Positions 31,065 through 62,664 of a stretch of DNA of 64,000 nucleotides are shown piece by piece; position 1 is the stretch's first letter; each line of letters opens with the position of its first letter. Source of the DNA: Hydrocarboniphaga effusa AP103 (GTDB taxonomy: Bacteria > Pseudomonadota > Gammaproteobacteria > Nevskiales > Nevskiaceae). The notes under the pieces are model-generated. The model did no database searches, was not told the DNA's origin, and worked only from the letters and a program-made list of their open reading frames with translations. Both the position numbers and the translations under genes were made by a program. The stretch is from positions 1,550,001 through 1,614,000 of the forward strand of contig NZ_AKGD01000001.1 in assembly GCF_000271305.1 (NCBI RefSeq), written 5' to 3'.

Positions 31065-31074
31065 GGGAGCCTGG

Positions 31075-32126: not shown

Positions 32127-32156
32127 GGTGAATGATGCAGTTCACTCTGGTGAATG
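32127..32156. promoter_or_regulatory. Candidate LysR-type operator between divergent operons
   Basis: GGTGAATG occurs twice (32127-32134, 32149-32156), 22 bp apart, and TTCAC lies between them, giving overlapping inverted repeats GTGAA-N8-TTCAC and TTCAC-TCTG-GTGAA. The site is in the 155 bp between the reductase and CoA-transferase starts. Half-site GAATG also forms the palindrome at 35323-35336, suggesting a shared regulator. Confidence 0.5.
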
Positions 32157-32213
32157 TTGTATCCGGAGGATCGCGGGCTAGTCTGCGCACTCCGACACCG
32201 ACAGGGATCAACG

Positions 32214-35255: not shown

Positions 35256-35322
35256 GGCGCCTCCATTTGAACCTGACGCGCGCTGGACCGACATTCAGCG
35301 GAGTGATGAGGTCCATTACTCT

Positions 35323-35407: not shown

Positions 35408-35728
35408 ATGACAAGAAAAATACGGCTTTGTAGCAGGGCCGACGTCCCCGCTGCCGGCATGCTGCCCCTGGACATCGCCGGCCTTCCGCCGGTTGCCGCC
35501 TTCGACGTCGGCGGCGAAATCTACGTCACCAGCAACGTCTGCACGCACAACGTCGCCCTGCTGAGCGACGGCTTCTTCGAGGGCGACACCATCGAGTGCC
35601 CCCTCCACGGGGGTTGCTTCAACGTAAGGACCGGTGAGGCCACGCAGTTCCCCTGTGAAGTGCCGCTGCAGACCTACCCGGTGATCGTCGAGGGCGGCGA
35701 TCTCTATACCGAAATCAAGGATCACTGA
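35408..35728 (+). CDS. Rieske-type 2Fe-2S ferredoxin of an aromatic dioxygenase
   Basis: 106 residues from ATG 35408 with GGAGAG upstream. Rieske ligands: CTHNVALL (C-x-H) and CPLHGGCF (C-x2-H), spaced as in NahAb/BphF ferredoxins. It carries electrons from a reductase to the oxygenase. It is the only Rieske ferredoxin gene seen in the island, so it may serve both the naphthalene-type dioxygenase and the salicylate hydroxylase. First gene of a three-gene plus-strand operon. Confidence 0.9.
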   Translation: MTRKIRLCSRADVPAAGMLPLDIAGLPPVAAFDVGGEIYVTSNVCTHNVALLSDGFFEGDTIECPLHGGCFNVRTGEATQFPCEVPLQTYPVIVEGGDLYTEIKDH

Positions 35729-35762: not shown

Positions 35763-37289
35763 ATGACCAAGAGCGAATTCCCGGACCGCAACGGCGATGC
35801 CGCCTATGCAGCGAAATACTTCCAGAAGGAGTATGGCCACTTCATAGGCGGCACATGGGTCCAGGGTGCCAGCGGCGAGCGCATCCCGATGATCAATCCC
35901 GCCAACGGTCAGACTCTGTCGTATATCCAGTCCGGCAACGCCGAGGACGCGCGCCGAGCTGTCGATGCCGCAGCGCAAGCCTTTCCGGCCTGGTCGCTGA
36001 CGCCGCGCTCCGAGCGCCAGCGCGTCCTCTACGAGATGGCGCGCCGCCTGCGTGCGCGAATGGCCGACTACGCGATGATGGATTGCCTGGACAATGGCAA
36101 ACCCGCTATGGAAGCGATGCATTTCGACCTGCCGATGGCCATCGAGCAGTTCGAGATATTCTCCGGAGCTCCTTGGTTCCTTCATGGCCAGTCGATCGAC
36201 GCACCTAATACCCTGGGTATCGTGCTGCGTGAACCGCTGGGGGTGGTGGCGCAGATCATTCCCTGGAACGTTCCGCTGATCATGATGGCCGCGAAGCTGG
36301 CGCCGGCTCTGGCTGCTGGCAACACCGTGGTGCTGAAGCCCTCCGAGATCGTCTGCCTGTCGGTGCTGGAGTTCTTCCGCGAGATGGCAGATCTTCTGCC
36401 GCCAGGCGTGGTCAACGTCGTCACCGGATATGGCCCCAGCGTCGGTGAGGCACTGGTGACGCACCCGAAGGTGCGCAAGGTCGCCTTCACCGGCTCCCGT
36501 CCGACGGCACAAAAGCTGATGCAGTACGCCAGCGTCAACATCATTCCGCAGACCATGGAGTTGGGTGGCAAGTCCGCCAATATCGTCTGCGAGGATGCCG
36601 ACCTGGATGCCGCCGCCGAGGGCGCGGCGATGTCGACCGTGCTCAACAAGGGCGAGGTTTGCCTGGCTGGCAGCCGCGTCTTCGTGCACGAAAAGGTCAA
36701 GGATGTCTTCCTCGACAAGTTCACCTCCCTGCTCAAGCGCGTGAAGGCAGGAGACCCGCGCGAGCCGACGACGCAGATCGGCCCGCAGGTCTCCAGGACG
36801 CAGTACGACAAGATCATGGGTTACCTCGAACTCGGCCAGCAGGAGGGCGCCAAGCTCGCCGCCGGTGGCCGCAAGGCCGCCCCGGCCGGATTCGAGGATG
36901 GTCTGTTCATCGAACCGACGGTGTTCTTCGACGTCGACAACAGCATGCGCATCGCCCAGGAAGAAATCTTCGGGCCGGTCAGCTGCGTCATCGGCTTTCG
37001 CGACGACGAAGAGGTGGTGCGCATGGCAAACGACTCGGTCTACGGTCTCGGTGGCGGACTGTGGACCAGGGACCTCTCCCGCGCCCATCGCATCGCGCGG
37101 GGCTTGGAAACCGGCACGGTCTGGGTCAACCGTTACTACAACTTCCTTGGCGGCATGCCGGTCGGCGGCTACAAGCAGAGCGGTTTCGGCCGCGAGTTTG
37201 CCGCCGAGGTGATGAACCACTACACCCTGACCAAGAGCGTGATCGTCAACCTTGCTGAAGGTCCGATCGGCGTCTTCGGGCAGCAGTAA
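35763..37289 (+). CDS. Aldehyde dehydrogenase, probably salicylaldehyde dehydrogenase
   Basis: 508 residues, NAD(P)-dependent ALDH fold: VVAQIIPWNVPLIMMAAKLAPALAAGN, the general base Glu in MELGGKSANIV, catalytic Cys in NKGEVCLAGSR, and the C-terminal EEIFGPV and GGYKQSGFGRE. In the nah pathway NahF oxidises salicylaldehyde to salicylate; position between a ferredoxin and its reductase supports the same role, but the sequence alone does not fix the substrate (NahF is about 25 residues shorter). Confidence 0.85.
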   Translation: MTKSEFPDRNGDAAYAAKYFQKEYGHFIGGTWVQGASGERIPMINPANGQTLSYIQSGNAEDARRAVDAAAQAFPAWSLTPRSERQRVLYEMARRLRARMADYAMMDCLDNGKPAMEAMHFDLPMAIEQFEIFSGAPWFLHGQSIDAPNTLGIVLREPLGVVAQIIPWNVPLIMMAAKLAPALAAGNTVVLKPSEIVCLSVLEFFREMADLLPPGVVNVVTGYGPSVGEALVTHPKVRKVAFTGSRPTAQKLMQYASVNIIPQTMELGGKSANIVCEDADLDAAAEGAAMSTVLNKGEVCLAGSRVFVHEKVKDVFLDKFTSLLKRVKAGDPREPTTQIGPQVSRTQYDKIMGYLELGQQEGAKLAAGGRKAAPAGFEDGLFIEPTVFFDVDNSMRIAQEEIFGPVSCVIGFRDDEEVVRMANDSVYGLGGGLWTRDLSRAHRIARGLETGTVWVNRYYNFLGGMPVGGYKQSGFGREFAAEVMNHYTLTKSVIVNLAEGPIGVFGQQ

Positions 37290-37360: not shown

Positions 37361-38383
37361 ATGGCCAGACACCTGATTACCCTCGAAGCCAGCGGTCAGA
37401 GCTTTCCTTGCGATGCCGGAGATACGGTGCTGCGTGCCGCGCTGCGTGCCGGAATCGCCTTCCCCTACGAGTGCAATTCCGGTGGCTGCGGCTCCTGCCA
37501 GTTCGAAAGGGTTTCCGGCGACCTCGAAGAATTGTGGCCTCAGGCCCCGGGCCTCACGCCACGGGCCCGCGAGCGCGGGCGGCAGTTGGCCTGCCAAACG
37601 GTCCCCAGCGGTGACTGCACACTGCGCGTCCGGCTCAAGCCAGACTGCCAGCCGTCGCTGCGACCCACGCGGCGGCGTGCGACCCTGGTATCGAGAACGC
37701 GGCTGACCGCCGACATGGCCGAGTTCAGCTTCCGCGCAGGGGACCCGGCGGATTTCCTGCCTGGCCAGTACGCCTTGCTGGACCTGCCGGGCGTCGCTGG
37801 CGCGCGCGCCTACTCCATGTCGAATCTGCCGAACGGCGAGGGCCTCTGGCAGTTCGTGATCAAACAAATAGGCGCCGGTCGCGGCGGCGCGGCTCTGTTC
37901 GAGGGCCTGCAGCCCGGCGATACGATCGGCCTGGACGGCCCCTACGGCATGGCACACCTGCGCCCGGACAATGACCGCGACATCGTCTGCGTCGGCGGCG
38001 GCTCGGGCATTTCGCCACTGCTGTCGATCTTGGCCGCTGCGGCACGGGCACCGCAGCTGGCGTCAAAGCGGCTGCTGCTGTTCTACGGCGGCCGTACGCC
38101 GGCAGACCTCTGCGCGCCGGCCCTGCTGGCGCGCGATGAGGCGCTGGCCAGAAGAGTCGAGTGCGTCACCGCGATCTCCGACCCAGCGCATGCCGGGGCC
38201 TGGGAAGGCCAGCGCGGCTTCGTGCACCAGGTGCTGCAGGGGTGGCTGGAGTCGGCGGGCGATGCCAGCAGATACGACTACTACTTCTGTGGCCCGCCGC
38301 CGATGACGGACGCACTGCAGCGACTACTGATGCTGGAAAAGCGCGTGCCAACCGCACAGCTGCATTTCGACCGTTTCGTCTAA
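37361..38383 (+). CDS. Oxygenase ferredoxin reductase, second copy
   Basis: 340 residues. Plant-type 2Fe-2S domain with C38-x4-C43-x2-C46 and C78 (ECNSGGCGSC, LACQT), FAD domain ARAYSMSNLPN, NAD domain IVCVGGGSGISPLLSILAAA, ending YFCGPPPMTDAL. Same architecture as the reductase at 31075 but clearly diverged. It probably serves the upper-pathway dioxygenase. Its end faces a strong hairpin terminator. Confidence 0.88.
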   Translation: MARHLITLEASGQSFPCDAGDTVLRAALRAGIAFPYECNSGGCGSCQFERVSGDLEELWPQAPGLTPRARERGRQLACQTVPSGDCTLRVRLKPDCQPSLRPTRRRATLVSRTRLTADMAEFSFRAGDPADFLPGQYALLDLPGVAGARAYSMSNLPNGEGLWQFVIKQIGAGRGGAALFEGLQPGDTIGLDGPYGMAHLRPDNDRDIVCVGGGSGISPLLSILAAAARAPQLASKRLLLFYGGRTPADLCAPALLARDEALARRVECVTAISDPAHAGAWEGQRGFVHQVLQGWLESAGDASRYDYYFCGPPPMTDALQRLLMLEKRVPTAQLHFDRFV

Positions 38384-38443: not shown

Positions 38444-39310
38444 TCAGACGTAGCGGTCCGCCACCTGGATGCTGAAACGGCCAATCTGCGCGATTTCCGC
38501 GTCCACCCGGTCACCGGGCAGCAACGGCCCCACCCCCTCCGGCGTGCCCGTGAAGATCAGATCGCCCGGATGGAGCGTGTAGAAGCTGGAGGCGTATTCG
38601 ATCAGGCGCGGCACATCGTAAATCAGCTGCCGGGTATTGGCCGACTGCCGCAGTTCGTTGTTGACCCAGAGGCGCAGATCCAATACGCCGGGATCCGGAA
38701 TCTCGTCCCGCGTCGCCAGCCAGGGCCCGCATACCGCATAGGTGTCCGGCGACTTGCGAAAGCTCTGCAACTCGGGGCCGCGGATCGTGATGTCCAGGCC
38801 GATGGCGTAGCCGGCGACGTAGTTCAAGGCCTCCTCGCGGGACACTTGGTGGCAGCGCCGACCGATGACCACCGCCAGTTCCACTTCGTGGTCATTTCGG
38901 CGATCGGGAAAGCGCAGGCGAATCTGTTCGGAGGGACCGATCAGCGCGCTGCTGGCCTTCAGGAACAGGCCCCAGTCCCAGATGCTCCGGGTCATGTCGC
39001 GCCCATGCGCAATGGCTGCGTCCTGGCTGGTCTCGTCGATGTGTGCCCGGTAGTTGATCGGCGCATTGACGATCTTGCCGGGATTGGCCACCGGTGAATC
39101 CAGCGCCAGGCGATCCAGCGCCAGGCGCGGTGCCTCGGGCAGCAGCTCCCGCACTCGCTCCAGTACAGTGTCGAAATGCAGGATCAGGGGATCGCCCTGT
39201 GCCAACGGCCAATGCTGCAGGGGGATCGCGGCCAGCGCCGGCGTCACGTCCAGAACGCCGTCTCCTACCAGAACTCCGAGGCGGTTGCCGTTGAATCGAC
39301 AGATTTTCAT
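38444..39310 (-). CDS. FAH family hydrolase/isomerase (second copy)
   Basis: 288 residues with the FAH core: FPDRRNDHEVELAVVIGRRC (metal-binding E-x-E), SFYTLHPGDLIFTGTPEGVGP and an N-terminal extension (ICRFNGNRLGVLVGDGVLD) like homoprotocatechuate-type isomerase/decarboxylases and fumarylacetoacetases. It lies at the 3' end of the upper-pathway operon. Since nagK already covers fumarylpyruvate, it may act on another ring-cleavage product; no specific substrate can be read. Confidence 0.8.
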   Translation of the reverse strand: MKICRFNGNRLGVLVGDGVLDVTPALAAIPLQHWPLAQGDPLILHFDTVLERVRELLPEAPRLALDRLALDSPVANPGKIVNAPINYRAHIDETSQDAAIAHGRDMTRSIWDWGLFLKASSALIGPSEQIRLRFPDRRNDHEVELAVVIGRRCHQVSREEALNYVAGYAIGLDITIRGPELQSFRKSPDTYAVCGPWLATRDEIPDPGVLDLRLWVNNELRQSANTRQLIYDVPRLIEYASSFYTLHPGDLIFTGTPEGVGPLLPGDRVDAEIAQIGRFSIQVADRYV

Positions 39311-39325
39311 GTCATGCCCCGCGCT

Positions 39326-39946
39326 TCAGGTCATATCCTTCAGCAAGCCCTCCGCGCGCAACGCGGCCTGCACCGCCTGGCGGGCGGCGATGCGCTGCTG
39401 GTATGCCCCGATCACCGGCCAGCGGCCAAGATCGAAACCGATGAAAGCGCCCCAGCCATTGACCGTGAACAGGTAAGCGTCGGCTATCGTGAAGCAATCG
39501 CCGACCAGATAGGTGCGGTCGCGCAGCTCGTTGGCCAGCCAGATATAGCGCCGCTCCAGCGCGGCTATCGCTGTCTGGCGCTGCTCGGCGGTGCAAGCCG
39601 GGTTGAACAGCGGGCTGTACTGCTTGTGCAGTTCGGAGGAGAAGAAGTTCAGCCAGGCCTGTAGTTGGTAGCGCTCTCGGCTGCCGACTGGCGGCGCCAG
39701 TCGCAGCCCCGGATTCTGGTCCGCGACGTACTGCAGGATCGCCGGCCCCTCAGTCAATACCGAGCCGTCGGCAAACTGCAGCGCCGGCACATAGCCCTTG
39801 GAATTGATCGAGAGATAGTCGCCGCCGGAGGCGGTCCGGCGGCTGGCCAAGTCGACCTTCTCCAGCTCGAAGGACAGGCCTGACTCGCACAAGGCGATGT
39901 GTGCCGCCAGCGAGCAGGCACCGGGACTGTAGTACAGCTTCAGCAT
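39326..39946 (-). CDS. Beta-class glutathione S-transferase (BphK-like)
   Basis: 206 residues opening LKLYYSPGACSLAAHIALCE, the beta-class motif with the reactive Cys10, followed by the thioredoxin-fold SKGYVPALQFADGSVLTEGPAI and all-helical C-terminal domain with FTIADAYLFTVNGW. GSTs of this class (BphK type) are often carried in biphenyl and PAH operons, where they may detoxify electrophilic or chlorinated intermediates. In the operon it sits between the dihydrodiol dehydrogenase and the FAH gene. Confidence 0.88.
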   Translation of the reverse strand: MLKLYYSPGACSLAAHIALCESGLSFELEKVDLASRRTASGGDYLSINSKGYVPALQFADGSVLTEGPAILQYVADQNPGLRLAPPVGSRERYQLQAWLNFFSSELHKQYSPLFNPACTAEQRQTAIAALERRYIWLANELRDRTYLVGDCFTIADAYLFTVNGWGAFIGFDLGRWPVIGAYQQRIAARQAVQAALRAEGLLKDMT

Positions 39947-39969: not shown

Positions 39970-40785
39970 TTACAGGTTCTCGCCGCCGCAGACATTCATG
40001 ATGCCGCGCACGCCGAAGCCGCCATCGCTGTTGATGACGACACCGGTGATGGGCGCCGCGTTTTCGCGCGAGGCCAAAAGGACGTAGGGTCCGCAGGTCT
40101 GTGCCGTCGTCGGCGCCATACGCAAAGGCGTGATTCCGACGATCATCTGGTCGAATTCATCGATCTGGTTCAGCGCCTGCTGCGCGGTCCCCGTCGCGGC
40201 CAGGCCGCTGAGGTTGGTGCGCAGGCCACCGGGGGCGACGCCGTTGACGCGCACCTTCGGTGCCAGCTCATGCGCCAGCTGCTTCACCAGGCCGACCAGC
40301 GCATGCTTGGAGGCGGTATAGATCGGGCCGCCTCCGCCGGCATAGAAGCCGGAATTGGAGATCGTGAAGATGATGCTGCCCTGGCTCTTCAGCAACTCCG
40401 GCAACGCTGCCCGGGCCCCGAGGAGGCCGCCCTTGACGTTGACCGCGAACAATTCATCGAAGGCCGCGGAAATCTTCTCAGGCTCCAGCTGCGGCAGGGC
40501 CTGGAAAAAATCAAAGATGCCCGCGTTGGCGATAAAGGTGTCCAGCCGGCCGAAGCGCGCGGCGGTCCGTTCCACCACACGGGCATTGTCCTCCCAGGTC
40601 GTGACATCGCCCGTTACGACCTCGACCTGATCGCCGAAATCGCGCCGCAGTTCCTCGCCGCGCTCGGCGCTGCGCTCCAGTACGCCCACCCTTGCGCCTT
40701 CCTTGATGAAGCGCTCGACCAGCGCCCTGCCAAGCCCGGAACCGCCGCCGGTGACGATTGCCACATTGCCTTCAAGCCATCCCAT
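39970..40785 (-). CDS. cis-Dihydrodiol dehydrogenase (SDR, NahB/BphB-like)
   Basis: 271 residues from ATG 40785, which has GGAG upstream; an ATG five codons earlier is weaker. Cofactor loop AIVTGGGSGLGRALVERF, NAG motif IANAGIFDF, active-site YTASK and the SDR catalytic Ser in FTISNSGFY. The overall sequence follows BphB/NahB enzymes that oxidise cis-dihydrodiols to catechol-type diols with NAD. It is next to the oxygenase subunits in the operon. Confidence 0.87.
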   Translation of the reverse strand: MGWLEGNVAIVTGGGSGLGRALVERFIKEGARVGVLERSAERGEELRRDFGDQVEVVTGDVTTWEDNARVVERTAARFGRLDTFIANAGIFDFFQALPQLEPEKISAAFDELFAVNVKGGLLGARAALPELLKSQGSIIFTISNSGFYAGGGGPIYTASKHALVGLVKQLAHELAPKVRVNGVAPGGLRTNLSGLAATGTAQQALNQIDEFDQMIVGITPLRMAPTTAQTCGPYVLLASRENAAPITGVVINSDGGFGVRGIMNVCGGENL

Positions 40786-40815
40786 GCTTCGCTCCGCCAT
40801 GTTGTTTCTCGTCTG

Positions 40816-41388
40816 TCAAAGGATCATCACCAGATTGCGGCCAGCCACCGAGCGCTCGTCGAAGTCGATACGTCGCTGCACCAGCCGCAGCGTGCCGAAG
40901 GGGCAGCGCCTCAGGACGTCCTCCCGGCAGTACACGAACTGGTCGATCTCGTAGGCGCGGCGCGTGCGGACCGCCAGGCAATTGCTGCGCGCCGCGAACT
41001 CGCCGTCCTTGCCGGTCTCGAACACCTCGACATTCGTCACCAGACGCCGGTAGCGCTCCGGCGGATCGACGCGCCACTGCATGCCGCTGTGGAACTGGTC
41101 GACACGCGCCTTGAGGAAGCCATAGTCGTCGTCGTACATGAAGACCTCCGCGGGCTGTCCATAGCGTTTCTCCTTGCGAAAGCGCAGTTCCCTGCTCACC
41201 ACCATGTAGCGAATCGTCGGATCCACGATCTGCTCCAGCCAGTCGGACAAGCGCTCGGTGTCGAGCAACCGGGCCTCGCGGTACAACAGCCGCTCGGCCT
41301 CGCGCCAGACCGCGTCCGGAGCGTACTGTTCCGGCGGCACGGTTCCGGCCGTGTCCTGCTTCACCGCTACCGCTGCATCGTTTGCCAT
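40816..41388 (-). CDS. Aromatic ring-hydroxylating dioxygenase, beta subunit
   Basis: 190 residues of the NTF2-like beta-subunit family: EAERLLYREARLLDTERLSDWLEQI, DPTIRYMVVSRELRFR, and the C-terminal LRLVQRRIDFDERSVAGRNLVMIL. It forms the trimeric base of an alpha3beta3 oxygenase with the product of the gene 16 bp upstream. Confidence 0.9.
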   Translation of the reverse strand: MANDAAVAVKQDTAGTVPPEQYAPDAVWREAERLLYREARLLDTERLSDWLEQIVDPTIRYMVVSRELRFRKEKRYGQPAEVFMYDDDYGFLKARVDQFHSGMQWRVDPPERYRRLVTNVEVFETGKDGEFAARSNCLAVRTRRAYEIDQFVYCREDVLRRCPFGTLRLVQRRIDFDERSVAGRNLVMIL

Positions 41389-41404: not shown

Positions 41405-42772
41405 TCAGGCCGCTGCCGCGACGGTGGTCGGATCGGCTCCTGCCTCGATAAGCTGGCGCTTCCACTGCGAGTCGTTGGGATCCATGTCGTGCCAGTCCTT
41501 CGCGGCCATCACTTCCTGGTAGAAGCGGAAGTAGCCACGGTAGGAGGTCTCGCCGATGGCCGACTCGCCGACCACGCCCGGCAGTTCCGGGTCCTCGCGG
41601 TCACCACCGATACCCATTTGCGCGTTCATGAAGCCCTGGCGCGTGACATAGCCGCGAGACAGCTGGCTTTCCGATTCCATGTTGTCGTTGTCATCCGCCT
41701 CCCAGTAGCCCGCCACGCCGAAGGTGCGGTGCATGGAATTGGCGATGCGCTGCTTGAGCTCCGCCGGCATGTCCTTCTCCACAATCGCCCAGGTGAAGCA
41801 CTCGGTGCGATCGGGCCCGTGAGGCTGCCAGACCTTGAACAGGTTGGATCCCCAGAGGTAGGTATTGTTGGGAAACACCGAACCGTTGATGTGCGAACCG
41901 TAGTAGCGCGCGCGCAGGGCGCCCACCGCTTTCTCGATCGCGGGACGCTTCTGGGCCTGCCACGCCAGTAGGTCGGCGGCCAGCTTGCCGTCGTGGGAGC
42001 CGGGGGCGACGTCGTAGAGGATGCCCAAACCGTGGCCGTAGCGCGTCGCCACCTGCAGGCCGGCGCCCTCCGGCGGCAGGCCCGCATTGCCGGCCATCGG
42101 CGCCAGCATGCCGCCACCGGCTTTCAGCGCGGCAGCATGGGTCCATCCAACGTGATAGGCATCGCCAACGAAGTTCTCGCTCGGCGCCTTCCAGTTGCAA
42201 TGCACCATAGAGCGCCCGGGCGGTCCGATCAACTCGACGCCGCCGCTGGCTTCCATCCAGATATCCAGGTACCAGCGCGCCTCGCCCAGGTAGTCCTCCA
42301 GGCTCGGGGCGGCGGCATCAAAGCAGCCATAAACAAAACCGTGATAACTCTTCACTTTGGCTACTTCGCGCAGGCCATGCGTGGCCTTGTCCAGTCGACC
42401 CTTGTACAGCTCCTTCTCGAACGGCACGGACTGCAACGAACCATCCGAGCCATAGGACCAGCCGTGGTAGTTGCAGACGAAGCCCCGCGAATTTCCGGCT
42501 TCGACCGGACACAGGCGCGCTCCGCGGTGACGGCACACGTTGAGGAAGGCCTTGATGCCCCGGTCCTGCTGTCGCACGACGATGACCTCATCCTGGCCCA
42601 TGCGCGCGGTAACGAAGTCACCCGGATTCGGGATCGCGCTCTCATGCGTCAGGAACAGCCAGCAGCGCGCGAAAATCTGCGCCATCTCCTGCTCGTAGAT
42701 ATCACGGTCATGATAGATGCGCGCGCTCTGCAGACCGTTCCGCACATCGATCAAGGTATTGATGGAACTCAT
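41405..42772 (-). CDS. Aromatic ring-hydroxylating dioxygenase, alpha subunit (naphthalene/PAH type)
   Basis: 455 residues from ATG 42772 with AGGAG upstream. Rieske centre C80-x-H82...C100-x2-H103 (CRHRGARLC, CNYHGW); iron site D204, H207, H212 (GDAYHVGWTH) and an acidic residue near 361 (EADDNDNME). It belongs with naphthalene/phenanthrene-type oxygenases in length (NahAc 449) and motif wording. It should add O2 to an aromatic ring giving a cis-dihydrodiol. Neighbouring isomerase and aldolase genes suggest a naphthalene-type substrate; methylated or larger PAHs are possible. Confidence 0.88.
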   Translation of the reverse strand: MSSINTLIDVRNGLQSARIYHDRDIYEQEMAQIFARCWLFLTHESAIPNPGDFVTARMGQDEVIVVRQQDRGIKAFLNVCRHRGARLCPVEAGNSRGFVCNYHGWSYGSDGSLQSVPFEKELYKGRLDKATHGLREVAKVKSYHGFVYGCFDAAAPSLEDYLGEARWYLDIWMEASGGVELIGPPGRSMVHCNWKAPSENFVGDAYHVGWTHAAALKAGGGMLAPMAGNAGLPPEGAGLQVATRYGHGLGILYDVAPGSHDGKLAADLLAWQAQKRPAIEKAVGALRARYYGSHINGSVFPNNTYLWGSNLFKVWQPHGPDRTECFTWAIVEKDMPAELKQRIANSMHRTFGVAGYWEADDNDNMESESQLSRGYVTRQGFMNAQMGIGGDREDPELPGVVGESAIGETSYRGYFRFYQEVMAAKDWHDMDPNDSQWKRQLIEAGADPTTVAAAA

Positions 42773-43392
42773 GGTACTTTCTCCTGTATCGCAAACTTCA
42801 AATCGGGCTGCGCGAGGTACTCCTCGAGGAAGTCCAGGCGGTCGTTGCCCCACCACATCTGATCGCCGATCAGTATCGTCGGCACCCCAAAAACACCCAG
42901 TTCCTGGGCGCGCCTGTTGCTGGCGTCGTACCGCGCCTCGGCGTCCTCCGAATGGAGAAACCCGAGGAACTCGCCCGCGTCCCAGCCGAGCTCTTCCGCA
43001 ACCTCCTGCAGAAGCGCGGGGTCACCCATATCGCCGCCCTCGCCCCAACAGCGGCGCCAGGCGACGCCTGCATAGGATTCCGCCTGGGCTCGGTCGATGG
43101 CATAGAACAGACCCTTGTTCATCAGGCCCGAGTCCAGCGACACCGGGAATTTCAGCGGTACGCCGTAGCGCCGCGCCCAGCGATCCATGTCGGTCACCAG
43201 GTAGCGCAGCTTCACCGGGATCTTCACGTTGGGTGGGCCGCTGTTGCCGGCAGCACGCTTGGCTGCCGGCAGGTCGATCGGGCAGTAGGTGATGCCGCGC
43301 CCATAGCGGCGCGCAAGCGACGGCAGCCGCTGGTGCGCCAGGTAGGCGAAGGGACTCATGAAGTCTAGGAAGAACTGCAGGTTGTGGGACAC
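42769..43392 (-). CDS. nahD: 2-Hydroxychromene-2-carboxylate isomerase (NahD-like)
   Basis: 207 residues from a GTG at 43392. DsbA/GST-kappa-like fold with the glutathione-binding FFLDFMSPFAYLAHQRL (Ser) and ELGVFGVPTILIGDQMWWGNDRLDFL. It interconverts hydroxychromene carboxylate and trans-o-hydroxybenzylidenepyruvate in naphthalene breakdown. Its stop overlaps the alpha-subunit ATG (ATGA), so the two are translationally coupled. Confidence 0.88.
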   Translation of the reverse strand: MSHNLQFFLDFMSPFAYLAHQRLPSLARRYGRGITYCPIDLPAAKRAAGNSGPPNVKIPVKLRYLVTDMDRWARRYGVPLKFPVSLDSGLMNKGLFYAIDRAQAESYAGVAWRRCWGEGGDMGDPALLQEVAEELGWDAGEFLGFLHSEDAEARYDASNRRAQELGVFGVPTILIGDQMWWGNDRLDFLEEYLAQPDLKFAIQEKVP

Positions 43393-43399
43393 GGGGAGC

Positions 43400-44227
43400 T
43401 CAGGCCGCCTTCAGTTCGGCGAATCCGATGCCGGTGATCCACTGCGGCACCGGCTCGTACAGCATCAGCTCGGCCCTGGATTCTCCGAGAGCAGCCATGG
43501 CGCAGATCCAGTTGCGGATCTCCAGAGCGCCGTTGCCGCCCTCGCGCAGGATCTCCTCGTCGGACAGCGCGATCAGACCCTCGACGTCACCGGCGCCCGC
43601 AAGCGCCAGGATGCGGCGGTCGAAGCTCTCGTTGATGCGGCCCATTTCTGCACTGCCGACCCAGTGACTGATGCCGCCGGTTCCGAACACCACCACCCGC
43701 TCCTTGCCACCCCAACTGCCGATAGCGCGGCGGATGCTCTGGCCAATCTGCTGGGCACGACGCCCCTGCACCACCGGCATCACACCGCAGTTGAGATACA
43801 CGGGAATGGTGCGCAGCCCGACATTGGACTTGACGCAGTAGTGATGCGGCACAGCCACCCCGTGGTCCACCGTCAGGGCCTTGGCAAAGGACCAGTCGAT
43901 ACCATCGTCATAGCCACTGAACAGGATGTGCTTGGCCAGCGGCTCGTTGTTCTCGATCACGCCGGTCTCGAAGCCGAGCCACTTCTCGGCCGGCCCCTCG
44001 ACATCGCCAATGCCGATCAGGCAGCGCGGGATGCAGTGCGGCCCAAACAGCGCGTAGTGATCGTCTCCGATGATGATCGCAGTGTCGGCATCAAGTTCAT
44101 CGACCCGGCGCGCGACCTTCTCGAAGGCACCGAGCACGCGGTCGCACTGCGCCGGTTCCGCCGCATCGGTAATGCTCGGGATCAAGGGGTCATGCGGCAT
44201 CAGGAAGCCGCCCACTATTTCTGCCAT
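43400..44227 (-). CDS. Class III (LigB-type) extradiol dioxygenase, catalytic subunit
   Basis: 275 residues with a good AAGGAG site. LigB-fold metal ligands: H12 in FLMPHDP, H57 in IIGDDHYALF, and probably E236 (GNGALEIRNW); H188 in GTGGISHWVG matches the catalytic base. A small LigA-type subunit gene lies just upstream, as in protocatechuate 4,5-dioxygenase. In the pathway drawn here it fills the slot of 1,2-dihydroxynaphthalene dioxygenase, normally a vicinal-oxygen-chelate enzyme (NahC). Confidence 0.88.
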   Translation of the reverse strand: MAEIVGGFLMPHDPLIPSITDAAEPAQCDRVLGAFEKVARRVDELDADTAIIIGDDHYALFGPHCIPRCLIGIGDVEGPAEKWLGFETGVIENNEPLAKHILFSGYDDGIDWSFAKALTVDHGVAVPHHYCVKSNVGLRTIPVYLNCGVMPVVQGRRAQQIGQSIRRAIGSWGGKERVVVFGTGGISHWVGSAEMGRINESFDRRILALAGAGDVEGLIALSDEEILREGGNGALEIRNWICAMAALGESRAELMLYEPVPQWITGIGFAELKAA

Positions 44228-44251
44228 TTCTATCTCCTTCGTAGGTCGGCC

Positions 44252-44512
44252 TCAGGCCGGACGGTTCATGCTCTGCATGTACTCGCCCATCGATCCAGGC
44301 CCGCGCACCGCCAGGAAAGCCATCATCAGCAGCAGCGTGCTGGTTTCGCGCCGCGCCATCGCGCCGACATCCAGATCAGCCAGGATGGCCCGCTCCGCTT
44401 CGTCCAGCCGGAACTCGGCCGCATAGGTCTGCGGGCAGGCGCGGTAGCGCTCTGTCTCCACCGGGTTGGTGCCGATCTGCCACAAGGCCTTTTCCAGTGC
44501 ATTGGTACTCAT
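44252..44512 (-). CDS. LigA-type small subunit of the extradiol dioxygenase
   Basis: 86 residues from ATG 44512 with GGGAGG upstream. The helical core ALWQIGTNPVETERYRACPQTYAAEF and LDVGAMARRETSTLLLMMAF match the LigA/PCA-dioxygenase alpha family. It caps the active site of the LigB subunit 24 bp downstream. The longer open frame upstream overlaps the aldolase gene and is not coding. Confidence 0.8.
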   Translation of the reverse strand: MSTNALEKALWQIGTNPVETERYRACPQTYAAEFRLDEAERAILADLDVGAMARRETSTLLLMMAFLAVRGPGSMGEYMQSMNRPA

Positions 44513-44513
44513 G

Positions 44514-45506
44514 TCACCCTCCCCTGCTGTCATATTCGCGGTGCAGCTGTGCCCAACGCCGGCCAGACTCGCGGGCGCCTTCGAGATAAGCCTCCGGCAC
44601 CAGCGTGTACGGCGGCCGGGCCGGGCCCGCTCGCATCCAGCCGGCGGCGTCCATGCGCGCCTTCTCCAGGCCAATGTTGTAAAGCGAGAACTCCTTGAAC
44701 GAGCCTTGCGGGAACAGTGTCTGGTAAGTGCGGCCGATAGCTCCGGTCAGCGCCTGCGCCTGCGCCCAGTCGCCGCACTTCTTCGCCCGTTCCACCTCGT
44801 CGCGCAGCCGCAGCACCGGCGCCGGGCCGCAGACTGCGCCGCTGGTCCAGAACGCGGTGCAGGCCTCCGGCGCGATACGTGCGGCGGCGTAGTAGTCGGC
44901 GTCAATCGGCAGGAAGCGGATGCGTCCCTTGGTCAGATTCAGATCCGCCATCAGTGCGCCGATACCCAGGTACTTCGCCGTGATGACCTGCGGGATCTCC
45001 GCGACCTGTGCCCAGAACGGCCGCGGGAAATCGAACTTGAAGGCCTCCGGGTTGGCGTAAATGCAGATCGCCGTGTCCGGGCATGCCTCGGCGACGTCGC
45101 GGTAGAACTGCACCGCGGTCGGCACATCAGGCGCGCACCACATCGGCGGTCCGAGCATGACGCCGTCAATACCGATGTCGCGTGCCTCGCGCGTCTGCCG
45201 GATGGTCTCGCGCGTGCCCAGGCTGCTGGTGCCGCCGAACAGCGGCACGCGGCCACGCACGGTCTCGACCAGCGTCCCCAGGTAGGCGCGCTTCTCCTCC
45301 CAGGTCAGCGTCGCGCACTCGCCCAGGGAGCCCAGGGTCACGATCGCATCGACTCCGGCGGCGATCAGCTTTTCGGCCGCTCTCGCGGTTTCGTCGAGGT
45401 CAACGGTGTTCTGGACGCGCCAGTCGCCGGCGTCCGGGGTCGCGGGTGTGGGCATGATCGCCCAACACCCACGAACCTCATCGACAGTGAGCAACTGCCT
45501 GCCCAT
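44514..45506 (-). CDS. nahE: trans-o-Hydroxybenzylidenepyruvate hydratase-aldolase (NahE-like)
   Basis: 330 residues from ATG 45506. DHDPS-superfamily aldolase following NahE closely: [84 protein letters not shown] and the Schiff-base Lys in [12 protein letters not shown]. It splits hydroxybenzylidenepyruvate into salicylaldehyde (or a larger aldehyde) and pyruvate. Start overlaps the DUF1329 stop (TGATG). Confidence 0.92.
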
Positions 45507-46819
45507 CAAGCACCACCGCTGCGCATGAACTGCGGGTTGAACATGCGCACCGGGCTCTTGCTTCCGTCAATCTCGGTGCGGAACTGCCCGGTGGTGCAGC
45601 GCTGGTTCTGCACGTCGAACATGCTGAAGCTATCGTAGATCGCCGCAAACTTGCCCTTGTTGCTCGGCAGATGATGCTCGGTAGAGGTGTGGCCGATCAT
45701 CCAGGACTTCCACAGCTTTCCGGCGCGGTCATAGACCAGCGTGCGCGGCGCGACGAAAGTCTGGGAGTCGAGGTACATCACGCGGCGACCAACCGGCGAG
45801 GATTTATCAACCGGCGTCATCTCCACTTCGTGCACCTGCCGCAGCTGCCAGGTGACGTCGGGGAAGCACTCGCCCTTGCCGGTCATCGCAACGAACTTGT
45901 AGCCGTCCGGCTGCTTGTACTCATCCGAAAGCTTCTGCTCGTTATGGCGGTACAGCGGCATCAGCAGGGTCTTGGTTCCCTTGAACTTCCAGTTCATCTC
46001 GGCCACGCGCCCGAAGTAACCCTCGAAGTCCTGGATCATCAGGTCGGAACCGAGGAAGGCATCCGTGGTCTGGCTGGTCTCCAGGCGACGCACGCGGCGC
46101 TGGAAGCCCAGATACAGGTAGCCGTCGCTGGCCTTCTGGTCCTGGTCGAAGTTCAGAATCATCAGCTGCGTGTCCTGAACGTCCTGCGGGCTGAACGCCT
46201 TGCCGTAGATGCCGCGGAAGTAGTCGTTGGGATTGGGCGAAACCGCCGGGATCGGCTCCTCGGCGACACGGTGCTTGAAGTTCAGGAAGTTGAACTGGAA
46301 TTCGACCGTGCGATCCACCTTTCCGGTGGCGGCGTTGCGGTACTTCCAGTAGAACGGCTTGATCTGGACGTTGTCGCCAGCCGAGAAGGTGTGACGGAAA
46401 TTGAACGCCAGCTTGCGGCCGGCGTCGGGATCGCTGCTCGACGGCAGCTCCGGAAACGGTCGGCCGGCGCTGTAGCCTTCGAGGTTGCCACCGACGATCT
46501 TGACCTTGCCGATGTTCTGCCGTGTCGCCTCCACGTACTTCGGATGCACATCGAAGGAATCGGTAGGGCCAACCTTGATAGCCGGCTGCTCACCTTTCTT
46601 CAGCAGGTCGTAGGTGACCGGGTCCAGCACCGCCTTGAACTGGTCGGCATTGTTCTTGTCGATCACGACCCCGACGTTAACGCCGGGCGCCGTCGGCGCG
46701 CCGGCCTTGTAGGGGTAAAAGGACTGGTTGATGACTTCGTCGGCGCTCTGCGCCAGCGCCGGAGCAGTGAACAGCGTTCCGGCGAGCATCGCCAATACGG
46801 ATCGGGTGATTCTCTTCAT
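45506..46819 (-). CDS. DUF1329 family exported outer-membrane-associated protein
   Basis: 437 residues from ATG 46819 with AGAGGA upstream; signal peptide [18 protein letters not shown]. The DUF1329 core ([42 protein letters not shown]) is related to LolA/LolB-like lipid carriers. DUF1329 genes travel with DUF1302 and RND genes in hydrophobic-compound loci; here all are in one operon with the catabolic genes. A role in moving hydrophobic substrate or modifying the outer membrane is inference. Confidence 0.85.
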
Positions 46820-46856
46820 CTTGGATTCCTCTCGGGGGTTTATGCGTGGGGCCGGA

Positions 46857-48932
46857 TCAGAAGAACTGGTAGCCCAGGGTGATAAAGACCTCGTCTTCCT
46901 TGTCCGATGAGCCCAGGGGGCCCTGGCGGAAACGGCCCAGCGGCTCGAAGCCGGTGAGACCGATGGGGCCGGCCTCCAGCAAGGGGCCGCCGGATGAGGC
47001 ATAGGCGGTAAACGGCGGATAGGGGTTGCAGTCGCGGCAGTCGTTGAACTTCTGCGCACCGTCGCCGAACTTGACGTTGGCACCGATCGAGATCTTGAAG
47101 TTCTGCGATAGCAGGTAGTCGACCGAAGGCTGCATCGCGTAGGCACCAGCCTTCCAGTCGCGCGCCATCACCAGCTTGGGCTGCAAGCGGTCTTGCAGGT
47201 ACCAGGTCTGGATGAAGAGCGTGCCGGTCCAGTTGTCCTTCCAGTCCGGCATGCCGATCTGGCCAAGCTGCGCCTGCTCCAGTTCGTGATCGAGCAGGTG
47301 CTGGCCGAAAATCTGCAGCGAGAACAGGAAGGTTCGGTCGGCGTTCAGGAAGGGAATGAACGTCAGGCGATCAAGCCCGACGACGTAGCGCGCGACGCGC
47401 GACTTGCTGTACAGCTCGGGGCGCAGGGTATTGGGAAACTCTTCGCCCCAAGTCATCGCCGCTTCGATGCGTGCCACTGTCTTGATCGGCGCGATGGTGA
47501 AGTCGAGCGAACCGCCGAGCAGCTTGACGCGCGGGAAGGCGATGTCGAAGGCGATCAGGTAAGGCACCGGGCGTGGCACGGTGTTGTACTGGCCCACCCC
47601 CGGCAGCAGTTCCGGCAGTTGCAGGTCCACCGGCAGCAGCAGGTTGGCGAAGGGACTGATCGCTGGCGGTCCCCCGGAGCCACCATGCAGGCTGGGCAGC
47701 TGCGAACGGTAGAGCAGGCCATTGAGCGAGAAGCTGACGTCGCCGAGCACGCCCTCGAACTTGGTGCCGATCTGCGTGTTGGACAGCGTCCAGTTCGGCA
47801 GCTGCACCTCGCGGATGCCGACCTGGTTGGGGCCGAAGTCCGTAGTCATGGCCGTACCCGGCTGCCCGAGGATTGGCGGCACCAGGGCAAAGTTGGACAC
47901 CGTACCGCCGTTATCCCAGAGATTCTTCATGCCGCGGAAGAAGCAGCCGGCATCCAGGATGACGTTGGCGGTGCCGCATTGGCCCAGGCTGTTGGGGCGG
48001 AACTTGTCGAAGTTCCATACCACCTGCCAGTTGAGATCCTGCAGGGCCCCCACCGGGCCCATTCGGTACTCTGCCGTGGCGATCCACATCGGGATGCGAA
48101 TGTCCTGCAATTCGTCATAGATGTTGTTGCGCGAGTAGTCGACCGGGTTGATGACGTCGAGCACGCGAAACAGATCGGTACGGCCCCAGATGACCTGCTG
48201 CTTGCCTACGCGGAAGAACAGTTCCTGCTCCTCGTCGCTGAGCGGCGATGAGAACAGCAGGGAACTGTCGAAGTAGGCTTCGCGCAGCCAGTCGAGGCGG
48301 TCGGCATCAGCGAATTCCGGGAAGCGCAGATCGTTCTCGCTGCCGTCCATGTAGCCGCGGAGGCAGCCGCGGGAATCCACGTCGCAGGGCCGCACCGGAA
48401 CGCCGAATGCGACACCGCCGCCCGGCCGGTGCAGGGGCTCGCCCAGCACGATCATGCCGTCGTTGGGATTGTTGGCCAGGTTGAAACCGAATTGGCCGAG
48501 GCCCGCGCCCGGCACGCCGTTGAACACCCCGTACTGCAGGTTATTGCCGCCGAAGGCGCCGCGGCCATGCGCCACGCAGCCGGCCGGGATCAAGCCGGAG
48601 GTGTCCTCCAGGCAGATCGGGCCACCGGCATTGCGGCCGTACTCCTTCGAATTGAGGTCATAAACACCGTCGTAGGTGCCACGCAGCTTCAAGGTCAAGG
48701 AGTTGCCGGTGAAGGCACCGAGATCGTCGAACTCGCGATCTGCCTCGAGGCGCAGGGTATTGCGCTCCTTCGACAGGCCGACATCCTGGCGGACGCGGGT
48801 ATCGTTCTCCAGGAAGCCATTGATGCGCCATGCGCCCAATTCCCCGGCCTGTACCGTCTTGCCATGCAGGGCCAAGCCCCATGCGCACAATCCCATCACG
48901 AGGCTTCCCAATGCCTTTCCGGCAATCCTCAT
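46857..48932 (-). CDS. DUF1302 family outer-membrane beta-barrel-like protein
   Basis: 691 residues from ATG 48932; signal region LVMGLCAWGLALHGKTVQAGE. Typical DUF1302: WRINGFLENDTRVRQ near the start, FFRVGKQQVIWGRTDLFRVLDVINPVDYS in the middle, and a terminal aromatic residue (LGYQFF) as in outer-membrane barrels. Two cysteine-containing insertions (GPICLEDTSGLIPAGC, RPCDVDSRGC) are visible. Pairs with DUF1329 37 bp downstream. Confidence 0.87.
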   Translation of the reverse strand: MRIAGKALGSLVMGLCAWGLALHGKTVQAGELGAWRINGFLENDTRVRQDVGLSKERNTLRLEADREFDDLGAFTGNSLTLKLRGTYDGVYDLNSKEYGRNAGGPICLEDTSGLIPAGCVAHGRGAFGGNNLQYGVFNGVPGAGLGQFGFNLANNPNDGMIVLGEPLHRPGGGVAFGVPVRPCDVDSRGCLRGYMDGSENDLRFPEFADADRLDWLREAYFDSSLLFSSPLSDEEQELFFRVGKQQVIWGRTDLFRVLDVINPVDYSRNNIYDELQDIRIPMWIATAEYRMGPVGALQDLNWQVVWNFDKFRPNSLGQCGTANVILDAGCFFRGMKNLWDNGGTVSNFALVPPILGQPGTAMTTDFGPNQVGIREVQLPNWTLSNTQIGTKFEGVLGDVSFSLNGLLYRSQLPSLHGGSGGPPAISPFANLLLPVDLQLPELLPGVGQYNTVPRPVPYLIAFDIAFPRVKLLGGSLDFTIAPIKTVARIEAAMTWGEEFPNTLRPELYSKSRVARYVVGLDRLTFIPFLNADRTFLFSLQIFGQHLLDHELEQAQLGQIGMPDWKDNWTGTLFIQTWYLQDRLQPKLVMARDWKAGAYAMQPSVDYLLSQNFKISIGANVKFGDGAQKFNDCRDCNPYPPFTAYASSGGPLLEAGPIGLTGFEPLGRFRQGPLGSSDKEDEVFITLGYQFF

Positions 48933-48960
48933 CTGATTCACTCCTCTCTCAGGTCTCTGG

Positions 48961-51393
48961 TTATTCGGCGGCTGACTGGCGCTCGCAGCCGGGCGTGGCG
49001 AAAGCCGGGGACGATGCCGCCTTGGTTGCACCCGCGGGCGCGGCGGACGAGGCCGTCACGAAGCCGGGGCGGAAGGCGAGAATCCAGGCGGGTACGACGA
49101 CCATGGCGCCAATGGCGTTGAGCACCAGCATCACAATCAGCAGCAGTGCGGCCGAGGACTGGAAGCGCAGGTCTGAGAAGAACACCCACATGACCACACC
49201 AGCGACGAGGGTCGTTGCGGTGAACATCACCGCAAGGCCAGTGGTGCTGATGGCATGGGCGACGGCATCGTGCAGCGCTCGTCCCTTCTCTATCTCGTCG
49301 CGAACGCGGTCCATCACATAGATCGCATAGTCGATGCCCACGCCCATTCCCACCGCGACCACCGGGATGATGTTGACGTTTATGCCTACATTGGCGATGC
49401 CCAGATAGCCGTAGCTGAGCACCGTGGCGAAGATCATCGGCAGGATCATCAGCCAGCCGGCGTGCGCCGAGTTGTAGTAGGTCGCCACCATCAGGAACGA
49501 TGCGATCAACACGAAAGCCGTGACCATGACGCTGTCATGGAAGTTGGCCTGATTGATAGCGGCGTTGACGCCGACGACACCGGCCGCCGGCTCGATCGTG
49601 AAGCCCTCGATACCCTTGCCGTAAAGCTCGGCGCCCTGCTTCGCGCGCTGCACCGCCGCCTCGATCGTCTTCGCCTGCAGGTCCGGCAGGTAGAAGCTCA
49701 GGTTTGCCAGCGTCTCCTCGGGGTTGACGTACTCGCGCAGGGCTCCGGGTACCGGACTGGAGTACTCGAAGGCATACATCAGGCTGCCCACGCCGCGTGC
49801 GTCTCCGGGTATTTGCAGCCAGCGCGGATCGCCCTCGTGGGTCAGGCGATTGACCTGCTTCACCAGGTCAGGGAGGCCCTTGGCGGCGCCCACCACCGGC
49901 TCCTCAAGCATGTAGCGCTCGAATTTCTCCATGGCTGCCATCGCCTCGGGGCTGCGCAAGCCCTCGCGCTCGCTGGAGCGGGCCACCACGAACAGTTCCT
50001 CACTGCCGGGGAAGCTCTCCGAGATCAGGTGCGCCGAGCGGTTGTAGTCGTGGTCACGCTTGAGAATCGGCGAGCCAGGCTCGGACTCTCCGAACTGCAC
50101 CTGGGACGCGCCCCATGCACCCAGCCCGAGCAGCACCAGGGCGCCCAACAACACCGCACGGCCGACGCCGGCGTTGGAGACCGGCTCCACCATCCGGTGC
50201 AGCGTCGCCGAAGTCTGGTCACGGCTGTTCTCAGTGCGCCGGGGCTGCGGTAGCACGGTCAGCGCCAGCGGCACCATGAAGTGCACTGTGAAGATCACCG
50301 AGAAGGCCCAGAAGCCGGCAAAGGCGCCGAGATGCTTGTTGAACGGCGCCGCGCCGATCGCCACCGCGGCGATACCGATGGCGTCGACGATGATCGCCAG
50401 GGAGCCCGGGCGGAACAGCGCGTCCAATGCATTGCGCGCAGCCTGACGACCGTTCTGGGTGCGCGCCAGTTCGTAGTAGTAGCGCTCGACCAACTGCACC
50501 CCGTGCGAGGTCGCACGGGCGGCAATCAGAAAAGGGATCGGCATCGACAGCGGATCGAGATGAATGCCGACCAGATTCATGAAGCCCAGGCCCCAGGCCG
50601 AGGACAGGAGAATGCCCAGCAATGGCAACACGATGCCGTAGAGGCGGCGGAAGTATCCCGCCAGCAACAGGATTATCAAGGCCGTGGTGTAGAGCAGAAT
50701 CTCGACGATCTGCGGCAGATAGGTGTAGACCCAGCCGGTCAGCACCGGGTTTCCCACCGCGTAGATGCGCAGGCCGTTGCGTGCTTCCGCCTCGCGGATC
50801 TTCTGCAGCCCGGCGAAGGCTTCGAGCAGTTCGTCGGAGGTCGAACTGTTCATCTGTGCCCGGATGATCGCCACCTTGCCATCGGCCGACACCAGGCGCC
50901 CGCTGATGCGTGGATCCGCCTGCACCTGCAACTGCAAGGTCTTCAGTTGCGCCGGCGTCAGCGCCTCGGCATTCGGGTCGTAGTAGGGATCGGAGCGGAT
51001 CGTGCCGGCTTCATTGATGTAGACCCGGCGCGTCGTGCGATGCGTGATGCTGGCCACGAGGTTGTGATTGACCCCCGGCAGCATGTCGATGCCCTGCGTA
51101 ATGCGTTCGATCGCGGCGAGTGCTTCGTTGCTGAAGATCGTGCCCTGCCCGACCTCCACCGCAACCGTGATGACGTTGGCCCCGCCAAAAATCCCGCGCA
51201 CCTCGTTGTGCAGCTGGATATAGGAATGCTGCTGCGGCAGAAGGTCCTCGAAATCCGACGCCATTTTCATGCCGGGGATCTGGCTGGCGAAGAACGCCGA
51301 CAGGCCGAGAATCAGCGCGAGCACGAAGCGCGGGCTGGCAAAAATCCACTCTTCGCCCCGCTGCAGCGCGGCGACTATCTTTTGGCGAATCAA
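48961..51393 (-). CDS. RND/MMPL-family transporter
   Basis: About 810 residues from a TTG at 51393 that has GGAGGG upstream and overlaps the YCF48-like stop (TTGA). Layout: one N-terminal helix (FVLALILGLSAFFASQIPG), large extracytoplasmic loop, helix block with a GIHLDPLSMPIPFLIAARATSHGVQLVERYYYE sterol-sensing/RND signature, second loop, and a second block with VVAVGMGVGIDYAIYVMDRVRDE. Members of this group move lipids or hydrophobic molecules using the proton gradient. Confidence 0.87.
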   Translation of the reverse strand: MIRQKIVAALQRGEEWIFASPRFVLALILGLSAFFASQIPGMKMASDFEDLLPQQHSYIQLHNEVRGIFGGANVITVAVEVGQGTIFSNEALAAIERITQGIDMLPGVNHNLVASITHRTTRRVYINEAGTIRSDPYYDPNAEALTPAQLKTLQLQVQADPRISGRLVSADGKVAIIRAQMNSSTSDELLEAFAGLQKIREAEARNGLRIYAVGNPVLTGWVYTYLPQIVEILLYTTALIILLLAGYFRRLYGIVLPLLGILLSSAWGLGFMNLVGIHLDPLSMPIPFLIAARATSHGVQLVERYYYELARTQNGRQAARNALDALFRPGSLAIIVDAIGIAAVAIGAAPFNKHLGAFAGFWAFSVIFTVHFMVPLALTVLPQPRRTENSRDQTSATLHRMVEPVSNAGVGRAVLLGALVLLGLGAWGASQVQFGESEPGSPILKRDHDYNRSAHLISESFPGSEELFVVARSSEREGLRSPEAMAAMEKFERYMLEEPVVGAAKGLPDLVKQVNRLTHEGDPRWLQIPGDARGVGSLMYAFEYSSPVPGALREYVNPEETLANLSFYLPDLQAKTIEAAVQRAKQGAELYGKGIEGFTIEPAAGVVGVNAAINQANFHDSVMVTAFVLIASFLMVATYYNSAHAGWLMILPMIFATVLSYGYLGIANVGINVNIIPVVAVGMGVGIDYAIYVMDRVRDEIEKGRALHDAVAHAISTTGLAVMFTATTLVAGVVMWVFFSDLRFQSSAALLLIVMLVLNAIGAMVVVPAWILAFRPGFVTASSAAPAGATKAASSPAFATPGCERQSAAE

Positions 51394-52361
51394 TGGATGC
51401 CCTCCGATTCGATATTCACCATCGCCGGCGTGCTGGCGCCGGAACCGCCGACCACGATCAGGGACGAGCGGCCCGGGAGGGCGACGCCGCCACGGAGGTA
51501 ACCGCTGCCGGAGGTAGCGCTCGGCAAAACCCGCCATTTGCCGTTGGATCCGCGCTGCTGGATCAAACCGAGTTCGCCGACAGCAAATAGGCGGCCACCG
51601 GCACCCGAAAGAAACCCGTACATCGGCACACCGGCGGCATTGGTTTCCGGCGTCCAGCTCTGTCCGCCATCGCGGGTGCCGAGGATGATCCCGCCGCGAC
51701 CCGTCAGCCAGCCGGTATCGGCGTCGGTGAACCAGACGTCGAAGGCGTAGAAATCGTCCGGGATGGGGGGCAGCATCTCCCAGCTGGCGCCGCCATCGCT
51801 GCTGCGCGCAACGATGCCAAACTCACCGGCGACAACCGCATTGCCGGCGTCGATGAATCGGATGGTGGTGAGGATCGCGTCTTGGCCAAACTCGGTCTTC
51901 TGCCAGCTCACTCCGCGATCGCCGCTATGCAGAACAGTGGAATAGGTCCCAACGACCCAGAATCCGCCGTCCGGAGCACACGCCAGGGCCATAGGGGTGA
52001 AGTCCTCCGGCATCGAGCCCGCGGCAAGGCGCCAGCCGGTGCCTTGTGCATTCCCAGTCCAGACACGGCGATGGAAGTCGAGTGCGACAAAGCTTCTGTC
52101 CGCGCAGGCCGCGACGTCGATCAGCGCCGCTCGGCTCTCCAGCTTTTGCGCTTCCCAGGTCTTGCCGGAATCGGTCGAACGGGACAGTAGGTCATTGCCG
52201 ACAGCCACGATCGCCTGGCCATTCGACGCAATTTTTTGCAGGTCGTCAGCGACGTGCGTGGCGCCATGGGCGATCGGCGAAAAGGCGGCAGCCACAGCAA
52301 AAATGGCCAGGATCGCGCTGGGCAATCCAAGATGGAGCGCCAGTGGCGCGGGACGGCTCAT
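51390..52361 (-). CDS. YCF48/BNR-repeat beta-propeller protein, exported
   Basis: 323 residues with a signal peptide (PSAILAIFAVAAAFSPIAHGA) and repeated propeller blades: RSTDSGKTWEAQ, HSGDRGVSWQK, RSSDGGASWEM, TRDGGQSWTPE (Asp-box S/T-x-D-x-G-x-x-W). YCF48-like proteins accompany RND/MMPL genes in several lipid or hydrocarbon loci and are thought to assist assembly. First gene of the ~14 kb upper-pathway operon; strong GGAGGAG ribosome site. Confidence 0.85.
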   Translation of the reverse strand: MSRPAPLALHLGLPSAILAIFAVAAAFSPIAHGATHVADDLQKIASNGQAIVAVGNDLLSRSTDSGKTWEAQKLESRAALIDVAACADRSFVALDFHRRVWTGNAQGTGWRLAAGSMPEDFTPMALACAPDGGFWVVGTYSTVLHSGDRGVSWQKTEFGQDAILTTIRFIDAGNAVVAGEFGIVARSSDGGASWEMLPPIPDDFYAFDVWFTDADTGWLTGRGGIILGTRDGGQSWTPETNAAGVPMYGFLSGAGGRLFAVGELGLIQQRGSNGKWRVLPSATSGSGYLRGGVALPGRSSLIVVGGSGASTPAMVNIESEGIH

Positions 52362-57276: not shown

Positions 57277-57427
57277 CGGCGGGCCTCCAGGGGCCGCAGC
57301 CACATGGTCAGCGTCTGCCCGGTGTTGGCGCTCACCGAGAACTGACCATCACTGCTCGTTGAAAATTGACCAGGGATGGAGGCCGGCGGCGGATGCTGCC
57401 GGCGTGGTTTGATTCTATCGCTGGTCG

Positions 57428-62654: not shown

Positions 62655-62664
62655 GGTGACCGCC

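Follow-up and report, generated by a model that had tools for sequence, protein, structure and literature searches.

A LigA/LigB-type extradiol dioxygenase of the PhnC/McbB family, probably for 1,2-dihydroxynaphthalene, in a naphthalene-type gene block of Hydrocarboniphaga effusa AP103

Described LigB-type enzymes and the gene pair

Cleavage of 1,2-dihydroxynaphthalene by extradiol dioxygenases of the LigB type has been reported from several sources. PhnC of Burkholderia sp. RP007, a degrader of phenanthrene and naphthalene, (Laurie and Lloyd-Jones 1999, cited here through PMC5141477), is described as a type-II (LigB-type) extradiol dioxygenase encoded by 828 bp (275 aa), with an activity of 564 umol/min/mg on 1,2-dihydroxynaphthalene. 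The same source presents McbB, from the carbaryl pathway of Pseudomonas sp. C5pp, as a further type-II enzyme of 828 bp and 275 aa that is active on 1,2-dihydroxynaphthalene and without activity on protocatechuate; the only subunit whose expression is described in the available part of that paper is LigB, with low activity (PMC5141477). In 2025, Burkholderia sp. FM-2 was reported to carry phnCa, coding for a LigA subunit, and its partner phnCb in a PAH-induced phn-nag cluster with nagG, nagH and nagI (PMC12472010), and AromaDeg already includes enzymes of the LigB type among those for bi- and polycyclic aromatics (PMC4250580). As PhnC, McbB, the FM-2 phnCa/phnCb pair and the AromaDeg enzymes are already documented, the system analyzed here is not novel in kind.

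The window, i.e. the whole stretch of DNA that was analyzed, comprises 64,000 nucleotides of H. effusa AP103 (contig NZ_AKGD01000001.1, positions 1,550,001 to 1,614,000). On its minus strand lie two adjoining ORFs, one at 43400-44227 encoding a LigB-type catalytic subunit of 275 aa and the other at 44252-44512 encoding a LigA-like small subunit of 86 aa. In a profile search, LigB matched PF02900 over residues 8-267 with 121.2 bits (cut-off 26.3), and an alignment with 25 relatives showed that H12, H57, E236, H122 and H188 are all invariant, giving the 2-His-1-Glu metal ligands and the two catalytic histidines of the LigB superfamily. The predicted structure (pLDDT 92) agrees with the fold of that superfamily, with a TM-score of 0.87/0.81 to LigAB beta (1bou_B) and a resemblance to DesB and MhpB, and the fold is thus LigB instead of the vicinal-oxygen-chelate (VOC)/BphC fold of NahC. 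The earlier note had placed a two-subunit LigA/LigB-fold enzyme between NahE-type and NahD-type genes, with H12, H57 and probably E236 as metal ligands; both ORFs and all three residues are present where it put them.

The small subunit, of the PhnCa type, scores 17.8 bits against PF07746, below the cut-off of 25.3; several of its positional orthologues score above it (26.0, 28.3, 28.5, 33.6 and 41.4 bits), and the window copy and the orthologues in the same position align end to end. Its predicted structure is all-helical, and the best PDB matches found by Foldseek are to DesB, at a TM-score of 0.62-0.72 with an E-value of only 0.24, which is not significant. With this LigA gene adjoining the LigB gene, the pair is of the two-subunit LigAB type.

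PhnC of RP007, likened here by description with McbB as its sequence proxy, shares with the window LigB its 275 aa, its LigB type and a PAH operon, but comes from a different host group. The order E-C-D-Ac-Ad-B of the window is also that of the RP007 phn cluster; a LigA gene was added to phn only in the FM-2 description, whereas the window has LigA next to LigB. The FM-2 LigA/LigB pair, again likened by description, lies in a phn-nag cluster neighboured by OmpW, whereas the neighbours in the window are DUF1302, DUF1329 and MMPL proteins. The McbB homologue on pXWY has 275 aa and 52% identity to the window LigB, with a LigA-like ORF directly upstream and NahE-/NahD-type genes nearby. Unlike the window, the McbB system starts from carbaryl with a 1-naphthol hydroxylase, does without a ring-hydroxylating dioxygenase, and has the order E-D-monooxygenase-LigA-LigB. 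The LigA-like ORF on pXWY (L038 7687-7953) is annotated as a hypothetical protein. Its presence upstream of the McbB homologue, set against the description of LigB as the expressed McbB subunit, with low activity, marks a testable gap.

Placed in a tree of class III dioxygenases, as the earlier note had proposed, the window LigB groups with the McbB homologue in a supported clade (96/95), and the gallate and protocatechuate enzymes and MhpB lie outside it; sequence L053 was left out of the alignments used. LigAB, DesB, CarBaBb and MhpB share the LigB superfamily and the ligand set with the window LigB, and the first three have a LigA partner or domain, as in the window, but the identities are 22-36%, the tree branches are separate and the substrates are others. 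Within the clade of the window enzyme, 15 sequences form a branch of their own (100/96), most of them linked to 3-phenylpropionate-dioxygenase-like genes, and clade members L036 and L041 adjoin such genes and hydrolases. Because of these neighbours, the clade is taken to cover more than one substrate and not dihydroxynaphthalene alone.

Gene neighbourhood and proposed reaction

In the direction of transcription, the minus strand carries MMPL, DUF1302, DUF1329, hydratase-aldolase, LigA, LigB, isomerase, dioxygenase alpha, dioxygenase beta, dihydrodiol dehydrogenase, GST and FAA-hydrolase genes, and the plus strand carries ferredoxin, aldehyde dehydrogenase and ferredoxin reductase genes. The hydratase-aldolase (44514-45509, minus) is a trans-o-hydroxybenzylidenepyruvate hydratase-aldolase of the NahE type, scoring 500 bits to the NahE-type sequence against 318 bits to PhdJ in a PDB sequence search, with 68% identity to the NAH7 NahE gene. 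The isomerase (42769-43392, minus) is a DSBA-family 2-hydroxychromene-2-carboxylate isomerase of the NahD type (PF01323, 181.7 bits; 48% to NAH7 NahD). The alpha subunit at 41405-42772 (minus) is of the naphthalene 1,2-dioxygenase type, with 1eg9_A as its best PDB match (563.8 bits) and 54% identity to NAH7 NdoB, and is followed by the beta subunit at 40816-41388 (minus; PF00866; 37% to the NAH7 NdoC gene) and a NahB/BphB-type cis-dihydrodiol dehydrogenase at 39970-40800 (minus; NCBIfam NF004849, 382.8 bits, above cut-off; 46% to the NAH7 homologue). The GST-family protein at 39326-39946 (minus; PF13409/PF02798/PF00043) may be a maleylpyruvate isomerase, and a second fumarylacetoacetate-hydrolase family protein is encoded at 38444-39310 (minus; PF01557).

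On the plus strand lie a ferredoxin reductase for oxygenases (37361-38383; Fer2, FAD- and NAD-binding domains), an aldehyde dehydrogenase (35763-37289; PF00171) that, judged by the pathway, is probably a salicylaldehyde dehydrogenase, and the Rieske ferredoxin of the dioxygenase, whose coordinates 35408-35692 are the extent of the match, not of the ORF (44% over 95 aa to NAH7 NdoA, E 2e-21). A NahR-like LysR regulator follows at 34350-35294 (minus; LysR domains; 51% to translated NAH7 43478-44350). Further along the minus strand are a gentisate 1,2-dioxygenase (30015-31202; TIGR02272, 506 bits, cut-off 442), a fumarylpyruvate-hydrolase-type protein (29270-29968; PF01557) and salicylate 5-hydroxylase, with its large subunit at 27989-29251 (713 bits to 7c8z salicylate 5-hydroxylase) and its small subunit at 27510-27992 (SnoaL_4/PF00866). 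Directly upstream of the hydratase-aldolase, 45506-52361 (minus) encodes DUF1329, DUF1302, MMPL and BNR-repeat proteins, which are kept with the hydratase-aldolase in the Solimonas relatives and possibly serve hydrocarbon uptake or efflux.

Since the alpha subunit, the NahE-like aldolase and the salicylate and gentisate enzymes are naphthalene-type neighbours, the most economical reading of the genes is that the block would encode a nag-type route from naphthalene via salicylate to gentisate. On sequence and structure prediction, we regard 43400-44512 as encoding a PhnC/McbB-family extradiol dioxygenase of class III (LigB superfamily) that has two subunits and very probably acts on 1,2-dihydroxynaphthalene (probability roughly 0.88). 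We infer its substrate, metal, product and the role of LigA as follows. A ferrous iron with H12, H57 and E236 of LigB as its ligands would bind both hydroxyls of 1,2-dihydroxynaphthalene together with O2, with H122 and H188 as the likely acid-base and oxygen-activating residues, as in LigAB, and the small LigA subunit probably capping the active site. The ring would be opened beside the diol to give 2-hydroxychromene-2-carboxylate, which the isomerase and the hydratase-aldolase would turn into salicylaldehyde and pyruvate, and the aldehyde dehydrogenase, salicylate 5-hydroxylase and gentisate dioxygenase of the same block would finish the nag-type pathway.

Displacement of NahC and possible alternative substrates

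The same step is catalyzed in NAH7 and in Paraburkholderia aromaticivorans BN5 by NahC, a VOC-fold enzyme unrelated to the window LigB. At E<=1, a query with NAH7 NahC gave no match in the window, and all 14 PF00903 matches of the genome fall outside it, in line with the earlier note, which had reported no VOC dioxygenase gene there. It could be argued that the ring is cleaved by a NahC-type enzyme from another part of the genome and that LigAB is secondary, as the query does find three distant VOC matches in the whole genome (29%, 23% and 21% identity), and in Novosphingobium pentaromativorans US6-1 pLA3 a LigAB lies directly beside a NahC-like VOC protein. The best genome match (29%), however, fits the HsaC and biphenyl-diol dioxygenase (BphC) models, though below cut-off, and its neighbours, which code for an enoyl-CoA hydratase and one CoA-transferase subunit, give it a steroid-like setting. 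The second match scores above cut-off as a catechol 2,3-dioxygenase, and none of the three lies in the island. That such an enzyme does the ring cleavage, with LigAB secondary, we consider very improbable. The genome's other LigB gene is 4,5-DOPA-dioxygenase-like, below the cut-off of that model.

The earlier note had further described the enzyme as a non-orthologous replacement occupying the classical nahC slot between nahE and nahD. That slot does not exist in the references: nahC of NAH7 and BN5 adjoins the aldehyde dehydrogenase gene, so LigAB takes the role of nahC, not its position. Displacement is borne out by the fold, the active site, the neighbours and the absence of NahC, and it is well supported that a LigAB-fold enzyme displaces NahC non-orthologously in the naphthalene pathway. 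Novelty is not, as PhnC, McbB and phnCa/phnCb had been reported already; the window enzyme adds to the documented LigB-type 1,2-dihydroxynaphthalene dioxygenases and is not a novel replacement.

Nothing directly supports the altered substrate range suggested in the earlier note (hydroxynaphthoate, methylated diols); 1,2-dihydroxynaphthalene is the substrate reported for the known members, and McbB is not active on protocatechuate. One might nonetheless picture an enzyme tuned to methylated dihydroxynaphthalenes, in which case methylsalicylate and methylgentisate would arise further along the pathway and a CoA-transferase/HMG-CoA-lyase-like pair would turn a methylated dicarboxylic acid into acetyl-CoA and pyruvate. 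In its favour, a CoA-transferase III gene (32154-33422, plus) and an HMGL-like gene (33419-34360, plus) sit inside the conserved block and are 96% identical in the related genome G032; US6-1 pLA3 has the same pair, and LeuCD-like genes as well, immediately upstream of the genes for its hydratase-aldolase, LigA and LigB. Against the model for succinyl-CoA:mesaconate CoA-transferase, the transferase reaches 227 bits, short of the cut-off of 700. The lyase is above the cut-off of the generic hydroxymethylglutaryl-CoA lyase model, the block showed no hydratase gene, and naphthalene itself accounts for all core genes. A literature link between citramalyl-CoA lyase and gentisate was sought and none was found. 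With the transferase below the mesaconate-model cut-off and the lyase fitting a generic model, the methylnaphthalene branch is a weak lead and we hold this tuning to be unlikely; a little less likely still is the wider proposal that the Solimonas group has in this island a mobile pathway for methylnaphthalene, with a PhnC-type enzyme that takes methylated diols and a CoA-transferase/lyase pair that salvages the methylated fragment.

Three-ring diols such as 3,4-dihydroxyphenanthrene as the main substrate, as in phenanthrene degraders, would fit the origin of PhnC in a strain that degrades both phenanthrene and naphthalene (PMC5141477), and the link of the group's LigB-type enzymes to polycyclic aromatics (PMC4250580). 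Yet the aldolase resembles NahE much more closely than PhdJ (500 against 318 bits), the encoded pathway leads to salicylate and gentisate, and the window annotation identified no 1-hydroxy-2-naphthoate dioxygenase, which FM-2 likewise lacks (PMC12472010); this main task appears quite improbable. A protocatechuate or gallate dioxygenase merely located among nah-type genes is brought to mind by the top NCBIfam models (3-carboxyethylcatechol, protocatechuate and gallate dioxygenases) and by relatives automatically annotated as "protocatechuate dioxygenase". All those models, however, score far below their cut-offs, and this identity, scarcely credible, was rejected on those scores, the separate tree position and the lack of protocatechuate activity reported for McbB (PMC5141477).

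Distribution and possible mobility of the gene block

The 1,2-dihydroxynaphthalene dioxygenase proposed here recurs with 95-98% identity and the same gene order in Solimonas aquatica, Solimonas sp. SE-A11, a Solimonas MAG and Sinimarinibacterium flocculans, and a relative is present in 10 of the 58 genomes of the family. The hydratase-aldolase/LigA/LigB arrangement is also found, with more distant relatives, in Haliea and Halieaceae MAGs, in Novosphingobium and in family member G028; the three genes are contiguous in L007, L008, L037 and L069 and, with LigA read by eye, in L012, and the isomerase directly follows LigB in L007, L008, L012 and L069. A McbB search of a 369-genome sample of the class returned no recognisable phn cluster. 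In US6-1 pLA3 (L037 10001-11823), the LigA and LigB genes adjoin one for a VOC protein with 52% identity to NahC, and by sequence this one cluster appears to combine the two kinds of dihydroxynaphthalene-type enzyme.

The genes of the window belong to a 28-kb block that is found again, at about 90-98% DNA identity, in Solimonas and relatives. With S. aquatica the homology (96%) extends over about 25.05-53.0 kb, with G032 (about 90%) over about 25.5-52.5 kb, and with G050 (98%) it continues to 57.32 kb, the edge of an IS copy. The documented LigB-type dihydroxynaphthalene route is thereby extended to a block common to Solimonas and relatives, and surveys that search for nahC alone would miss such probable naphthalene degraders. 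That H. effusa AP103, a Solimonas relative, uses a LigAB-fold enzyme rather than the textbook NahC looks real.

The distribution of the block, as read from these alignments, would fit horizontal spread. Two IS21-like copies that point the same way and are 99.88% identical lie on either side of the catabolic region, at 18551-21072 and 57318-59839, and no target-site duplication was evident in the flanking sequence inspected; the pair is possibly a composite transposon or a site of homologous exchange. In G032 (L068 14536-17236 against window 42769-45509), the genes on either side, for the alpha subunit (95%) and the aldolase (98%), are closer to those of the window than are the isomerase (70%), LigB (89%) and LigA (86%) genes, which suggests local recombination. 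HbpS-like genes at 22923-23386 and 55712-56175, near both IS copies, are 70% identical in DNA. The GC content is 54% at 60001-64000, compared with about 64-67% elsewhere in the window.
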